From Candidatus Zixiibacteriota bacterium (GTDB lineage Bacteria > Zixibacteria > MSB-5A5 > GN15 > FEB-12), in contig QNAD01000059.1 in NCBI GenBank assembly GCA_003641345.1, positions 1 to 9,000 on the forward strand: a stretch of DNA of 9,000 nt, given 5' to 3'. Below are positions 2,998 through 9,000 of the stretch, in pieces. A program made the position numbers and the translations under genes. How positions within the stretch are numbered: the stretch's first letter is position 1; every line of letters begins with the position of its first letter. The notes beneath the pieces were generated by a model. That model made no database searches and was not told where the DNA came from. It saw only the letters and a list, made by a program, of their open reading frames with translations.

Positions 2998-3057
2998 GAA
3001 TATTTAAATTGTTCCAATGGAGTTATTGTATAATTAAAAAATTATGTGATTAATAAA

Positions 3058-3130
<73 letters not shown>

Positions 3131-3139
3131 TTAGAGCGT

Positions 3140-3176: not shown

Positions 3177-3953
3177 TTATAAAATTTTGTGAGCTACCCA
3201 TACATTAGGCTCGATATATTTACCTGTGTTGTTAGATAAGTCTATCTCAATCGGTTTTAAAGCACCTGGGATAACATACTCACCTGACTCATAAAATTTT
3301 AGCTGTGCCCATTCTTCCCATTCTTTGACCGAGCCGGATATAGTCATTGCTTTATGGCATGGTTTAATAATTTTTCCGCCCAGTTTGGTGTGTACTCTCA
3401 GCCATGGATCAAAGGGGAGACCTTGGTCGTTTTCCCATTTTATATAATTATCAATATGAGTTAACGGATATTTTGGTTTGAAATTTGGTCGAACCGGAGC
3501 TACCAGATAAAGCAGTCTGTTTTTTTTAGTAATACCTATCATATACTCAACAATCTTTGAGCTTAAGCCCTGTCCCAAATATTTAGGATCAATCATGATT
3601 TGCAAAGCGGAGCAGAAATTAGGTGTTAGCTTATTTTCAATATCCCGAAACCCTTTTTCCAACACCCAGTCCCAGCCTTTATCAGGAAGGTCTTCGAGAG
3701 GTTTGTCCCAATGAAATGGAATACAGTTTCCTACAGCAATTAATTTATCACAAGTTATATCGATGGCACCGAATTGGAAATCTGTTAATCCTGAATACAA
3801 TTTCCCGAAATATTTGCCGGCAATTGGATCATGAAGCATAAATTCCGGCCATACTTTTCTTGCAAGTGCCATTTCTTCTTTAATTATCAATTCATTTTCA
3901 GAAGCTGTGAAAATTTTAAAATCTTTTGAAATTATCATTGTTTGTTTATCCAT
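3177..3953 (-). CDS. GNAT-like N-acetyltransferase family protein
   Basis: A 258-residue soluble protein without signal peptide or membrane segments. Residues 115-140 carry a GNAT motif A: the beta strand SALQIMID, then YLGQGLSSKIVEYM, where LGQGLSS (126-132) matches the R/Q-x-x-G-x-G/A pyrophosphate loop that holds acetyl-CoA. Several blocks look like those of a conserved, uncharacterised acetyltransferase-like family known to me from annotated bacterial genomes: FMLHDPIAGKYFGKLY (38-53), LPDKGWDWVLEKGF (89-102), LVAPVRPNFKPKYPL (150-164), LPFDPWLRVH (179-188) and YVIPGALKPI (226-235). The substrate is not known. The start at 3953 has no clear Shine-Dalgarno sequence; Met6 is the only nearby alternative. 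The gene diverges from the nitroreductase gene and runs towards tRNA-Thr. Confidence 0.85.
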   Translation of the reverse strand: MDKQTMIISKDFKIFTASENELIIKEEMALARKVWPEFMLHDPIAGKYFGKLYSGLTDFQFGAIDITCDKLIAVGNCIPFHWDKPLEDLPDKGWDWVLEKGFRDIENKLTPNFCSALQIMIDPKYLGQGLSSKIVEYMIGITKKNRLLYLVAPVRPNFKPKYPLTHIDNYIKWENDQGLPFDPWLRVHTKLGGKIIKPCHKAMTISGSVKEWEEWAQLKFYESGEYVIPGALKPIEIDLSNNTGKYIEPNVWVAHKIL

Positions 3954-5067: not shown

Positions 5068-6276
5068 ATGTTAGTTGATAAAGATATAAAAAATGATATG
5101 ACCAAATGGGAAGTAACTGACCATGTATTAGGTCTGAAATCTTCGATTATTAGAGAGATTTTGAAATTTTCTTCGCAACCTGGAGTTATATCTTTTGCAG
5201 GCGGATTGCCTGCGGCAGAATTATTTCCAATTGAAACCATGAAAAAAATTGCAGACGATGTCTTGACCAAATATGGTAAAGAAGCGTTGCAATATACAAT
5301 TACCAAAGGAATAATTCCTTTAAGAGAATTACTTGCCAAAAGAGCTACGAGTCAGGGAATTACTTCTACTCAGGATAATATCTTAATAACTTCCGGTTCT
5401 CAACAGGGAATTGAATTAGTCGCAAGGGCGTTTATTGAACCGAATGATTATATTTTAACTGAAGACCCTACTTATGTGGGAGCGCTTCAGGCATTTAATT
5501 ATTATCAAACCAAATATGCGACGATTGAGATGGATAGCGATGGTATGATTATTGAAGATGTGGAAAAGAAAATAAATGAATATCATCCAAAATTCATTTA
5601 TACTATTTCCAATTTCCAAAATCCGACCGGAATTACTATGTCATTGTCACGAAGAAATAAATTAATTGAAATTGCGGCTAAATATAATCTTCCGGTTATA
5701 GATGATAATCCGTATGGCGACATTCGTTTTTCCGGTGAAGCATTGCCTTCTTTAAAATCTATTGGCGGTGATTCAGTTATTGATTTAAGAACATTTTCAA
5801 AAACATTAGCACCCGGATTTAGAATTGGATGGATTAATGGTCCGGCTGATATGATCAATATTTTTGAAAAAGTTAAGCAGTGCACTGACCTTCATACAAG
5901 CACTTTTGGACAGTATATGGTTTGTGAGTTTCTTTCTCAGGGATTGCTTGAACCGCATATTGAGATTATAAAAAAAGATTATCTTGTTAAGCGAAATACG
6001 ATGATTAATGCTCTTAAAGAGTATTTTCCCGAAGGTATAAAATGGACTGAGCCGGATGGTGGTTTGTTTCTTTGGGTTGAGCTTCCGGAACATATGTCTT
6101 CGAAAGATCTTCTTCAGAAAGCAGTGGAAATGAAAGTAGCCTATGTTTATGGTTCTCCATTTTTCCCTAATGGAAAAGGCGAAAATACGCTGAGGATGAA
6201 TTTTTCAACTGCTTCCAAAGAAGATATTGTTGAAGGTGTAAAACGCTTGGCGAAACTCTTTAAAGAAAACATGTAA
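5068..6276 (+). CDS. PLP-dependent class I/II aminotransferase (2-aminoadipate/LysN-like)
   Basis: A 402-residue cytoplasmic fold-type I aminotransferase, full length for the family. Lys245 in RTFSKTLAPGFRIGW (241-255) should form the Schiff base with pyridoxal phosphate, and Arg252 should bind its phosphate. Other landmarks are FAGGLPAAELFP (43-54); TSGSQQGIEL (108-117), the phosphate loop; Tyr136 in DPTY; NFQNPTG (182-188) with the cofactor-contacting Asn185; DDNPYGDIRF (212-221), where Asp212 or Asp213 would pair with the pyridine nitrogen; and Arg376 in NTLRMNFS, the usual substrate-carboxylate arginine. The opening and the GGLPAAELFP block resemble the multi-substrate 2-aminoadipate/LysN and MocR-related branch. 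No DNA-binding domain is present. The donor is unknown; 2-oxoglutarate as acceptor is typical. A terminator separates the gene from the following dapF-like unit, so it is probably transcribed alone. Confidence 0.93.
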   Translation: MLVDKDIKNDMTKWEVTDHVLGLKSSIIREILKFSSQPGVISFAGGLPAAELFPIETMKKIADDVLTKYGKEALQYTITKGIIPLRELLAKRATSQGITSTQDNILITSGSQQGIELVARAFIEPNDYILTEDPTYVGALQAFNYYQTKYATIEMDSDGMIIEDVEKKINEYHPKFIYTISNFQNPTGITMSLSRRNKLIEIAAKYNLPVIDDNPYGDIRFSGEALPSLKSIGGDSVIDLRTFSKTLAPGFRIGWINGPADMINIFEKVKQCTDLHTSTFGQYMVCEFLSQGLLEPHIEIIKKDYLVKRNTMINALKEYFPEGIKWTEPDGGLFLWVELPEHMSSKDLLQKAVEMKVAYVYGSPFFPNGKGENTLRMNFSTASKEDIVEGVKRLAKLFKENM

Positions 6277-6297: not shown

Positions 6298-6328
6298 AAA
6301 AACCTGCTTATTTAAGCAGGTTTTTTTT
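6298..6328 (+). terminator. Strong Rho-independent terminator
   Basis: AAAAACCTGCTT (6298-6309) pairs with AAGCAGGTTTTT (from 6314) around the 4-nt loop ATTT. The T-run extends to 6328. It begins 21 bp after the aminotransferase stop. The A-run before the stem would give a T-run on the other strand, so it could work in both directions. Confidence 0.93.
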
Positions 6329-6329
6329 A

Positions 6330-6358
6330 TTGATTGAAAAAAATTAGATTGATATAAT
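6330..6358 (+). promoter_or_regulatory. Sigma-70-like promoter of the dapF-trpE-trpG unit
   Basis: TTGATT (6330-6335), a 17-nt spacer and a perfect TATAAT (6353-6358). Transcription would start at about 6364-6366, that is at or next to the ATG at 6364. This leaves almost no leader, in line with the lack of a Shine-Dalgarno sequence before the gene. It follows directly after the upstream terminator, where a new promoter is expected. Confidence 0.6.
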
Positions 6359-6363
6359 TAAAT

Positions 6364-7197
6364 ATGTTGAAGTTTGCTAAATATCACGCATTAGGCAATA
6401 GCTTTATTGTTCTTGATGAATTACCGCCCAAAAAACCAAAGAAAGATTTAGAAAATTTAGCTATCGAGCTTTGTGATAGTTCGTTTGGCGTTGGAGCTGA
6501 TGGAATTATAATATTATCGGATTCCAAAAAAGCGGATTATAATTTTGATATTTATAATGCTGATGGAAGTTGGGCGGAAAAATCCGGAAATGGTTTGCGT
6601 TGTGTGGGGTTGCATTTATATCTAAATAGAAAACGAAAAAAATGTACAATAGAGACAACCAATTCTATTGATGAGGTAATATTTGACAATCAAATTAAGC
6701 CAGAATACTTTTTTAAGACAACCTTAGGAACTCCTGAATTTGATACTGGATTAATTCCGGTTAAAACAAAGCAAAAATATTTAATAAATTCTCCGATGAA
6801 AGTCAGCGGTTATAATTTTCCAATGACGTGTTTATCTATCGGCAATCCACATGCGGTTCTTTTTGTAAATAAATTTGATTTTGACTGGCAGGTTCTTGGT
6901 GAGGAGATTGAAAACCTTTCTCAGTTTCCAAACCGAACTAATGTGGAATTTGTTAAGATTGTTACTAAAAAGAAAATAAAAGTCAAAGATTGGGAGCGGG
7001 GTGCAGGTCCAACTGGTTCATCGGGAACCGGAGCTGCGGCTTCTGTTGTTGCAGGAGTTATGAATGGACAGTTAGATAGAGAATGTCAGGTCGATTTTGA
7101 AAAAGGTTCTTTATATATTAATTGGCACTCCGATAATGATATTGTAGAGTTGTCCGGTCCGGTTGAATTTATTTGCAAAGGAACTTATAATATCTGA
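6364..7197 (+). CDS. dapF: DapF-family protein (diaminopimelate epimerase-like) with both catalytic Cys replaced by Ser
   Basis: A 277-residue protein, the normal length for diaminopimelate epimerase, which interconverts LL- and meso-DAP for lysine and peptidoglycan synthesis using two cysteines (Cys73 and Cys217 in E. coli and H. influenzae). The family signature is clear: KYHALGNSFIVLD (6-18), FGVGADGIII (41-50), NADGS (65-69), GNGLRC (75-80), SIGNPHAV (158-165), NRTNVEFV (190-197) and WERGAGPT (210-217). Asn12, Asn65, Asn161, His163, Asn193, Glu211 and Arg212 match conserved binding residues. However, the catalytic positions read KSGNG and SSGTG, giving Ser74 (TCC, 6583-6585) and Ser220 (TCG, 7021-7023). 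Classical DAP racemisation by two thiols is therefore not possible. The start matches the family N-terminus. The stop overlaps the trpE start by one base (TGATG). It may be a divergent epimerase, an isomerase for another substrate, or a non-catalytic relative. Confidence 0.9.
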   Translation: MLKFAKYHALGNSFIVLDELPPKKPKKDLENLAIELCDSSFGVGADGIIILSDSKKADYNFDIYNADGSWAEKSGNGLRCVGLHLYLNRKRKKCTIETTNSIDEVIFDNQIKPEYFFKTTLGTPEFDTGLIPVKTKQKYLINSPMKVSGYNFPMTCLSIGNPHAVLFVNKFDFDWQVLGEEIENLSQFPNRTNVEFVKIVTKKKIKVKDWERGAGPTGSSGTGAAASVVAGVMNGQLDRECQVDFEKGSLYINWHSDNDIVELSGPVEFICKGTYNI

Positions 7198-8654
7198 TGT
7201 TTTCCTTTAATGACATAAAAAAACTGAATCTAAAAGGAAATGTCCTTCCTTTATTTAAGAGAATCCCTGCTGATTTGGATACGCCGGTTTCAGCTTATAT
7301 GAAACTCACCCAAGGCAAGAGAGATTCTTTTCTTTTAGAATCTGTCGAAGGTGGTGAGAAGCTGGCTCGTTATTCTTTTTTAGGATTTGATCCTTTTTTG
7401 ATAATTGAAGGAAATCAGGATACTGTAACTTTAAAAAATGGAAAACAATCCAGAGAGTTGGATGGTAGGCCAGATCAATTTATAAAAGAACTTTTCAAAT
7501 TTTATAAACCAGTAAGAATTGAATCTTTACCTCGCTTTACAGGAGGCGGAGTAGGTTTTTTTGCTTATGATACTATTCGTTGGATGGAAAAAATACCGGA
7601 CAATAACCCCGATCATATTCAATTTCCTGAGATTCGTTTTGGTTTGTTTAAGAACATTGTTGTTTTCGACCATCTTAAACAGGAGATTATTGTTGTTGCC
7701 AATATTCTTCATGATAAAGAAGATTCCGGTTTAAGGGATAAATATAAACAAGCGACAGCCGATATTGATGACATTGTTAAAAAATTAAATTCTCATGTCT
7801 CTAATAAGCGTGAAATCAAAAAATCAAAAACAATAATTAAACCGAGTTATACCAAGGAAGAATTTTGTTCTTTAGTTAAAAAAGCCAAAAAATATATCAA
7901 AGAAGGTGATATTTTTCAGGTGGTTTTGTCACAGAGATGGCAGCTAAATTCATCCAAAGACAGCCTTTCTGTTTATAGGCGTTTGCGAAGAATTAATCCT
8001 TCTCCTTATATGTATCTTTTAAATTATGGTGATGATGCTATTATTGGGGCATCGCCTGAAATGTTGGTTAGAGTCGAGAAAAATGTTATTGAAACCAGAC
8101 CTATTGCAGGAACCCGTCCTCGAGGGAAAAACGAACAGGAAGATAATGTTCGGATAAAAGATTTATTGTCTGATGAAAAAGAACTTGCGGAACATACTAT
8201 GCTGGTTGATTTGGGCAGGAATGATCTCGGTCGGGTTAGCGAACCGGGGACAGTTGTATTAAAAGATAAAATGATAATCGAAAAGTATTCTCATGTTATT
8301 CATATTGTCAGTTCAGTTGTTGGAAAATTGAAAAAGAAAATTTCCCCAATCGACGGACACTTTGCGTGTTTTCCTGCTGGAACTGTAACCGGAGCACCTA
8401 AGATAAGAGCGATGGAAATTATTGATGAATTGGAGAAAGAGCGAAGAGGGGTGTATGCCGGGACTATTGCTTATTTGGATTTTTGGGGGAACCTTGATTC
8501 GTGTATAGCAATAAGAACTATTATTAAAAGAAAGAATAAATATTTTGTTCAGGCAGGAGCGGGAATAGTAGCTGATTCTAAACCGACAAAAGAATTTAAA
8601 GAAACCGAATCAAAAGCAAATGCCTTGATTGAGTCTATTGTAGGGGAAGACTGA
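7197..8654 (+). CDS. trpE: Anthranilate synthase component I
   Basis: A 485-residue protein, typical for TrpE, which converts chorismate and ammonia (delivered by TrpG from glutamine) to anthranilate and pyruvate, the first step of tryptophan synthesis. The N-terminal domain holds LLES (46-49), and NPSPYMYL lies at 267-274. Together these form the tryptophan feedback site and favour TrpE over PabB. The C-terminal chorismate-binding domain shows GDIFQVVLSQR (237-247), ETRPIAGTRPRG (299-310), AEHTMLVDLGRNDLGRV (331-347), CFPAGTVTGAPK (391-402), RGVYAGTIAYLDFWGNLD (417-434) and QAGAGIVADS (452-461), covering the Mg/chorismate site. The ATG shares a base with the stop of the DapF-family gene (7195-7199, TGATG), so translation is probably coupled; an AAAGGA at 7177-7182 is somewhat distant. 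No tryptophan-rich leader peptide is seen upstream, so control may rest on feedback or distal elements. Confidence 0.97.
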   Translation: MFSFNDIKKLNLKGNVLPLFKRIPADLDTPVSAYMKLTQGKRDSFLLESVEGGEKLARYSFLGFDPFLIIEGNQDTVTLKNGKQSRELDGRPDQFIKELFKFYKPVRIESLPRFTGGGVGFFAYDTIRWMEKIPDNNPDHIQFPEIRFGLFKNIVVFDHLKQEIIVVANILHDKEDSGLRDKYKQATADIDDIVKKLNSHVSNKREIKKSKTIIKPSYTKEEFCSLVKKAKKYIKEGDIFQVVLSQRWQLNSSKDSLSVYRRLRRINPSPYMYLLNYGDDAIIGASPEMLVRVEKNVIETRPIAGTRPRGKNEQEDNVRIKDLLSDEKELAEHTMLVDLGRNDLGRVSEPGTVVLKDKMIIEKYSHVIHIVSSVVGKLKKKISPIDGHFACFPAGTVTGAPKIRAMEIIDELEKERRGVYAGTIAYLDFWGNLDSCIAIRTIIKRKNKYFVQAGAGIVADSKPTKEFKETESKANALIESIVGED

Positions 8655-9000
8655 TGCTTTTAGTTCTGGATAATTACGATTCATTTACATACAATCTCGT
8701 GCAGTATTTTGGTGAGTTAGGAGCTGACCTTGAAATATTTCGCAATGATATGATAACTGTTGAAGAAATAATTGATAAAAAACCACAAGGTATTGTGCTC
8801 TCACCCGGACCGGGGCGGCCTGAAAAAGCAGGTATTATGAATAAACTTATTAAAACTGCACAAGGCAAAATTCCTATTTTAGGTGTATGTCTTGGACATC
8901 AGGCGATAGCTCAGGTGCATGGGGCAAAAATAGGTTATGCACCTAAATTAATGCATGGGAAAACCTCGGATATTACTCATGATAATTCTTCGCTATTTAA
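8654..9000 (+). CDS. trpG: Anthranilate synthase component II, glutamine amidotransferase (3' end outside window)
   Basis: The frame is open from ATG 8654 to the window end, giving 115 residues of a class I glutamine amidotransferase usually about 190 residues long. It supplies ammonia to TrpE. Visible are the opening MLLVLDNYDSFTYNLVQYF, the oxyanion/structural motif VLSPGPGRPEKAG (48-60) and the nucleophile elbow GVCLGHQAI (77-85) with catalytic Cys79. The catalytic His and Glu lie beyond the window. The start overlaps the trpE stop by one base (TGATG, 8652-8656), and AGGGGA at 8642-8647 can serve as its ribosome binding site. PabA is closely related and often shared; the position after trpE favours TrpG, possibly serving both. 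Confidence 0.95.
   Translation, partial: MLLVLDNYDSFTYNLVQYFGELGADLEIFRNDMITVEEIIDKKPQGIVLSPGPGRPEKAGIMNKLIKTAQGKIPILGVCLGHQAIAQVHGAKIGYAPKLMHGKTSDITHDNSSLF

Follow-up and report, generated by a model that had tools for sequence, protein, structure and literature searches.

The window, by which we mean the whole analysed stretch of 9,000 nucleotides from a Zixibacteriota bacterium, encodes a DapF homolog with serine at both positions of the catalytic cysteines. Judged from its relatives, this Ser/Ser form is no damaged gene; it is a coherent natural variant with more than one origin on the trees that were built. DapF is a drug-target enzyme and the textbook example of two-thiol proton transfer. 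Among the matches listed in the open-licence literature (Zixibacteria with lysine or DAP, natural-serine DapF, and Acidobacteria with DAP or lysine), nothing on a Ser/Ser variant was found.

The window protein and its relatives

The coding sequence and the two replaced positions are as follows.

6364..7197, + strand: dapF-like coding sequence of the Ser/Ser type, 277 aa (TIGR00652, PF01678, solved relative 9mro)
6583..6585, + strand: codon TCC of Ser74, replacing the N-domain catalytic cysteine (E. coli Cys73), by codon reading and alignment
7021..7023, + strand: codon TCG of Ser220, replacing the C-domain catalytic cysteine (E. coli Cys217), by codon reading and alignment

The protein scored 226.7 bits with the DapF equivalog model TIGR00652 (cut-off 114.65) and 157.1 bits with PF01678 (DAP_epimerase), its sole Pfam match at E 0.001. 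Solved DapF structures (PDB 9mro, 3ejx, 2otn) were aligned with it by sequence over almost the full length, the top one being 9mro with 188.6 bits. In the alignment with E. coli DapF, Ser74 stands at Cys73 and Ser220 at Cys217, and the DAP-contact residues and the GNG and GTG carboxylate turns are present. The sequence-only reading had claimed that cysteine is replaced by serine in both motifs, that Asn12, Asn65, Asn161, His163, Asn193, Glu211 and Arg212 are retained, and that the second codon, TCG, lies two changes away from a cysteine codon; codon reading and the alignment confirmed all of this. The window protein differs from DapF in having Ser/Ser and not the two catalytic cysteines. PhzF is a DapF-fold isomerase that acts on a chorismate-derived compound and carries an acidic residue instead of the thiols; unlike PhzF, the window protein has no acidic residue at either catalytic position. 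It matched neither the PhzF family nor PF05544, which we take to be the proline racemase family, at E 0.001.

Three protein searches were carried out with Ser/Ser queries, taking the best 120 of 7865 matches for the window protein, the best 120 of 2460 for a distant Ser/Ser member, and the best 120 of 2869 in the third search. The first two together gave 198 distinct proteins among the matches listed: 194 Ser/Ser, 2 Ser/Cys and 2 Cys/Ser, with no residue other than serine or cysteine at site 74 or 220. Because the searches began from Ser/Ser queries, these counts are silent on the overall frequency of the Ser types. Asn65, Asn161, His163, Asn193, Glu211 and Arg212 were found in all 198 listed relatives, the DAP-contact residues were constant across them (missing sequence ends aside), and the motifs were fixed down to 31% identity with the window protein. 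The closest relative among the matches listed shares 96% identity and bears the label candidate division Zixibacteria. It carries the same serine pair as the relatives at 85% and 63% identity, which, together with the 194 of 198, excludes chance or a sequencing error. In the genome loci, serine at site 74 was encoded by TCC, TCG, TCA, TCT and once by AGC, and TGC was seen in the Cys rows, indicating that serine was maintained through synonymous change. The sequence-only reading had proposed a coherent subfamily rather than a damaged gene, and had named close relatives with cysteine at both sites as evidence to the contrary. The Ser/Ser state of those three relatives and the conserved contact residues support the proposal.

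Site types across the phylum and their origins

Scanning genome contigs yielded 65 loci. Zixibacteria or Zixiibacteriota appears in the titles of 40, and four are located on MAG chromosomes assembled as one contig (2.6-3.6 Mb). From these loci 18 related genomes were selected, 17 with a Ser/Ser DapF and one with Cys/Ser (G007). A second, Cys/Cys DapF had been suggested as something to look for; the search, run in the related genomes at E 0.001, returned one DapF each in 18 of 18. The analysis was extended to a phylum set of 110 Zixibacteriota genomes, requested at 80% completeness with no completeness value printed. DapF was detected in 101 of them (99 over the cut-off), leaving 9 genomes without a DapF. 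Two matches occurred in 7 of the 101; six of these cases were split genes or contig-end fragments, and G035 had two full copies. Reading of 103 phylum loci, the window excluded, gave 61 Ser/Ser, 16 Cys/Ser, 11 Cys/Cys, 4 Ser/Cys and 11 partial loci, the last being dropped from the type counts. Per genome with both sites readable, the types were 61 Ser/Ser, 16 Cys/Ser, 11 Cys/Cys and 3 Ser/Cys, two of the four Ser/Cys loci coming from G035. The 61 Ser/Ser genome copies all exceed the DapF equivalog cut-off. Elsewhere in the phylum a contact residue is changed in rare cases, for example His163 to Gln. In a Ser/Cys lineage represented by G025 (L140) and G024 (L142), Gly-Gln-Phe/Thr precedes the first serine.

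A tree of 98 DapFs was built with the two catalytic columns left out. This tree came from a quick search with SH-aLRT support only; a single branch did not set its outgroup apart, and 32 of its 95 inner branches are open. The minimum number of changes on it was 4 for site 74 and 5 for site 220, and the Ser/Ser label by itself needed at least 4, gains and losses together. Single cysteines were found within the main Ser/Ser clade, at site 74 in G007 and at site 220 in G035. Another tree, of 76 rows that included references from outside, likewise quick and with SH-aLRT support only, required 4 and 7 changes at sites 74 and 220, respectively.

Ser types were also found beyond the phylum. Among the matches listed in the third search, 52 proteins lay beyond the second Ser/Ser clade proper (48 Ser/Ser, 3 Cys/Ser and one partial); six of them were labelled Terriglobales or Acidobacteria, and most were without such names. 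The impression that Ser-type DapFs exist in other phyla was thus borne out by protein and record labels (Acidobacteria, a mobile contig and an Agrobacterium plasmid). An IMG/VR contig (L232, 2923-3768) encodes a Ser/Ser homolog whose neighbours look, by eye, like a serine recombinase and phage or mobile-element genes. Another Ser/Ser homolog lies on the Agrobacterium vitis plasmid pRvVAT039a (L237, 5953-6849), with neighbours annotated as an IrrA regulator, a 2OG-Fe dioxygenase, an iron-containing redox enzyme and a fatty acid desaturase; it is possibly a separate biosynthetic use of the DapF fold. The DapFs that adjoin dapL or lysA in annotated records (L233, L234, L239 and L247) are Cys/Cys.

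To look for a base that might compensate for the lost thiols, three Ser/Ser groups of 12, 8 and 15 rows were set against 23 rows of Cys/Cys type. Enrichment was seen, apart from the serines themselves, at 195 (Asp/Glu), 202 (Lys/Arg), 219 (Ser) and 230 (Ala); none of the four is invariant in all three groups, and no replacement base common to the groups was seen. The acidic residue 195 was considered as a candidate and rejected, being enriched yet not invariant. Residue 73 was rejected as well: although Lys or Arg stands there in 198 of 199 rows (the listed relatives and the window protein), the second Ser/Ser clade has Trp and the third group mostly Ile, Leu or Met.

Genomic setting and the DAP pathway

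The genes and sites around dapF in the window are as follows.

5068..6276, + strand: AT1, a LysN/multiple-substrate-type PLP aminotransferase (PDB relatives; conserved upstream neighbour)
6298..6325, + strand: intrinsic-terminator-like hairpin and T run between AT1 and dapF (sequence scan)
6330..6358, + strand: sigma-70-like promoter site directly upstream of dapF (10/12 matches, TG before the second hexamer)
7197..8654, + strand: trpE, anthranilate synthase component I, whose ATG overlaps the dapF stop by 1 base (TIGR00564)
8654..8998, + strand: 5' part of trpG, running off the window (open ORF; trpG cluster member)

The window gene stands behind a LysN-like aminotransferase and not beside dap or lys genes. 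The solved relatives of AT1 are 1x0m (368 bits), 3aov (368 bits) and LysN 2egy (288 bits), and it is nearest to multiple-substrate and 2-aminoadipate aminotransferases. As a DapL it scored 116.9 bits against the 593.25-bit cut-off of TIGR03540. The hairpin and the promoter-like site between AT1 and dapF make separate transcription possible in the window, and the two genes may be transcribed apart there; two terminator-like sites were found in the 1161 bases scanned (0.8 expected), and promoter-like sites numbered 8 in the region against 4.5 expected, so that a single site is weak on its own. The trpE product scored 554.7 bits with TIGR00564 (cut-off 517.7). Elsewhere in the window, positions 361-2997 encode a large protein that looks secreted, has thrombospondin type 3 repeats (PF02412, 61.6 bits) and ends in a C-terminus that is dockerin-like by eye only; a tRNA-Thr with anticodon cgt lies at 3057-3131 (- strand), and a 258-aa ORF at 3177-3953 (- strand), acetyltransferase-like by eye only, had no Pfam or NCBIfam match at E 0.001.

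Neighbours were counted in 57 loci (the 65 scanned minus nine Cys/Cys outsiders, plus the window), of which 4 had no DapF ORF and 5 too little upstream sequence, leaving 48 usable. AT1 lay immediately upstream of dapF in 42 of these 48 loci with more than 900 upstream bases, mostly Ser/Ser. By type, it was directly upstream in 8/11 Cys/Cys, 3/4 Cys/Ser, 0/1 Ser/Cys and 4/4 further Ser/Ser genomes. This shared locus indicates that, for every main type, most copies are orthologs occupying one and the same place. In the 20 neighbourhoods of mixed type (L211-L230), a LysN-like aminotransferase immediately preceded dapF in 15, and ArgRS and AroA often came after it. In one of them (L225, genome G025) dapF is followed by trpE to trpA and the aminotransferase is absent. 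Among 52 loci with a downstream gene, dapF overlapped trpE in all 28 trpE-linked loci (the window and 27 others), by 1 or 4 bases in 19 of the 28 with script-called starts, and aro and trp genes continue downstream. Lineages without trp genes at the locus still carry dapF with the serine pair. An unassigned MFS transporter gene (PF07690; L039, 6535-7857) separates trpD from trpC in at least 12 loci, and an MFS transporter directly follows dapF in 16 of the 52.

DapA was detected in 4 of the 110 phylum genomes, 2 over the cut-off and all four Ser/Ser, with no match at E 0.001 in the other 106. DapB gave weak matches in 3 of 110, 0 over the cut-off, and none at E 0.001 in 107. The controls for the DapA and DapB searches were detected in 14/14 and 11/14, and MurI was found in 100 of the same 110 genomes (94 over the cut-off), indicating that the absence of DapA and DapB is not a general detection failure. 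In the 18 related genomes, neither LysA nor TIGR03542 DapL was found over the cut-off (0/18 each). LysA-like matches of about 200 bits fell below the cut-off; one of them (L090) looks by eye like an ornithine-decarboxylase relative, with no model over the cut-off. A lysine route through alpha-aminoadipate, hinted at by the LysN-like neighbour, was rejected, LysX being over the cut-off in 0/18 genomes.

MurE was over the cut-off in 17 of the 18 related genomes, the exception being the Cys/Ser genome G007. One MurE was scanned against the DAP-ligase equivalog model and passed it with 532.7 bits against 373. The motif DNPR, which presumably marks DAP ligases, was found in MurE at 16 of 17 loci; the solved LD-lysine ligase 4bub has DDPR at this position. 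The related genomes thus apparently combine a predicted DAP-type MurE and a DapF without the usual DAP source. DapA and DapB appear to be missing irrespective of DapF type, Cys/Cys members included, a point that the sequence-only reading did not anticipate; DapA loss therefore does not by itself explain the serines. With DapA over the cut-off in 2/110, DapB in 0/110 and LysA in 0/18, no source of LL-DAP was recognised in the related genomes, and in this the setting is unlike that of classical DapF. Two bacterial cases show that a wall can exist without DAP or lysine synthesis: Fusobacterium nucleatum is said, in the excerpted text of PMC11602996, to use lanthionine in its wall, and Chloracidobacterium (Acidobacteriota), according to the excerpts of PMC4376005 and PMC12816986, requires L-lysine and has a peptidoglycan layer by microscopy.

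A proposed serine-pair proton transfer and its rivals

We assign a probability of about 0.4 to the reading that the window protein would be the Zixibacteriota ortholog of DapF, using its serine pair as acid/base on DAP, or on an amino dicarboxylate resembling it, that does not come from DapA/DapB. In the proposed mechanism, Asn12, Asn65, Asn161, Asn193, Glu211 and Arg212 would hold the distal L-amino-acid end, as in DapF, the proximal carboxylate would be clamped between two helix N-termini (SGNG and SGTG), and Ser74 and Ser220 would serve as the acid/base pair. The reaction would most likely be epimerisation of a DAP-like compound, supplying the wall diamino acid to the DAP-type MurE, and the compound would derive from an unknown route or from salvage rather than from DapA/DapB. 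The nearest alternative would be a less demanding proton transfer at the same site, namely elimination or isomerisation. We infer that the protein would still be an active, cofactor-independent proton-transfer enzyme. A hydroxyl or thiol seems to be needed, because only serine or cysteine occurred at either site in the 198 listed relatives, with unchanged contacts.

The serine-pair reading is supported by the coexistence of all four Cys/Ser combinations in one phylum, by the position behind AT1 that most of these copies share, by the few changes on the tree with single cysteines inside the main Ser/Ser clade, by DapF in 101 of 110 genomes, by the single DapF in each of the 18 related genomes, and by the DAP-type MurE. 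The proline racemase superfamily offers a precedent, since a catalytic serine supports epimerisation or dehydration in that related fold: in the part of PMC4113996 available, 4HypE, with Ser93 and one cysteine (residue 236 according to the legend, 255 according to the text), works as an epimerase, and t3HypD, with Ser90/Thr256, as a dehydratase. Family and substrates differ, and no Ser/Ser pair is among the enzymes described in that part. HisR (histidine racemase) and PddB (DAB racemase) are DapF-related, cofactor-independent and act on other substrates, and the HisR host is said to have no DAP pathway and a wall with lanthionine (excerpt of PMC11602996). Unlike the window protein, both are Cys/Cys, and Cys-to-Ser exchange slows or abolishes them: the PddB mutants retain less than 0.1% activity (excerpt of PMC8225329) and the HisR mutants are described as hindered (excerpt of PMC11602996). 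This loss in PddB counts against the serine-pair reading, as do the lack of a known LL-DAP source and of a shared replacement base. Moreover, the trpE overlap in Trp-making lineages points away from the wall and towards amino-acid or aromatic metabolism, and AT1 is not in front of dapF in 3 of 11 Cys/Cys genomes.

The chief rival, supported by the overlap with trpE in all 28 trpE-linked loci, is a new reaction on a new substrate, which we regard as doubtful but by no means negligible. The DapF fold and the LysN-like aminotransferase would have been recruited to a step of amino-acid or aromatic metabolism (an isomerisation, a dehydration or an elimination), either with a C-H acidic enough for serine or with one base sufficing, as in the Ser/Thr dehydratase of PMC4113996, as far as its excerpt describes that enzyme. 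The aro and trp genes downstream, the kinship of AT1 with multiple-substrate and 2-aminoadipate aminotransferases, and the apparent absence of DapA/DapB from the phylum all fit such a step. However, the residues that grip the distal end of DAP are unchanged, the Cys/Cys copy sits in a locus of this kind too in 8 of 11 genomes, the serine pair is kept in lineages without trp genes at the locus, and in the window AT1 and dapF have a terminator-like hairpin between them. Of the 18 genomes with a Ser-type DapF, 7 encode prephenate dehydratase, so the protein is not simply a filler for a missing Phe enzyme. The sequence-only hint at the chorismate or tryptophan pathway finds some support from context in the overlap with trpE, but there are lineages that keep dapF without trp genes at the locus. 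Its proposal of a new chemistry or substrate was not borne out, given that cysteine and serine replace one another at a single locus and that the Ser/Ser groups have no replacement base in common. The occurrence of all types in one phylum, mostly at one locus, and of single cysteines inside the main Ser/Ser clade suggests that every type has the same role and that no new reaction came in with the serines.

A slow but sufficient classical DAP epimerase, its upstream enzymes replaced by unrecognised non-homologous ones, would account for the equivalog score, the DAP-type MurE and the single DapF per genome (18/18), but we consider it rather unlikely in view of the residual activity below 0.1% in the PddB mutants (excerpt of PMC8225329), the genomes without a match at E 0.001 to DapA (106/110) or DapB (107/110), and the 0/18 for both TIGR03542 DapL and LysA over the cut-off. 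A non-catalytic relic, decaying or binding only after loss of the DAP pathway, would agree with the loss of both catalytic thiols and the apparent loss of DapA and DapB; it is made improbable by the retention of DapF in 101 of 110 genomes, by the restriction of both sites to serine or cysteine among the listed relatives, and by motifs that stay fixed down to 31% identity. The DapF of Chlamydia is bifunctional and also acts as a glutamate racemase. A similar substitute for glutamate racemase would find some support in the 80.7 bits that the window protein obtains with the NCBIfam bifunctional family NF038284, but this is far under the cut-off of 350, and MurI over the cut-off in 94 of 110 related genomes largely refutes the idea, which we hold to be very improbable; supply of D-glutamate was rejected as a role for the same reason.

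The Ser/Ser DapF is spread more widely than the sequence-only reading could know. It exposes a phylum-wide gap, in which a DAP-type MurE is accompanied by very few DapA matches and by no clear DapB, and a limit of annotation, since 61 Ser/Ser copies pass the DapF equivalog cut-off without both defining residues. A natural lineage with serine at either or both thiol sites, all combinations living, makes the chemistry of a weaker base directly testable. There is some chance, on which we place only tentative weight, that this phylum, and probably others, handles a wall diamino acid or an analogue without DapA/DapB, by a thiol-free DapF, a cofactor-independent amino-acid epimerase with a two-hydroxyl proton shuttle, that was reached more than once and has Cys/Ser and Ser/Cys forms alongside it.
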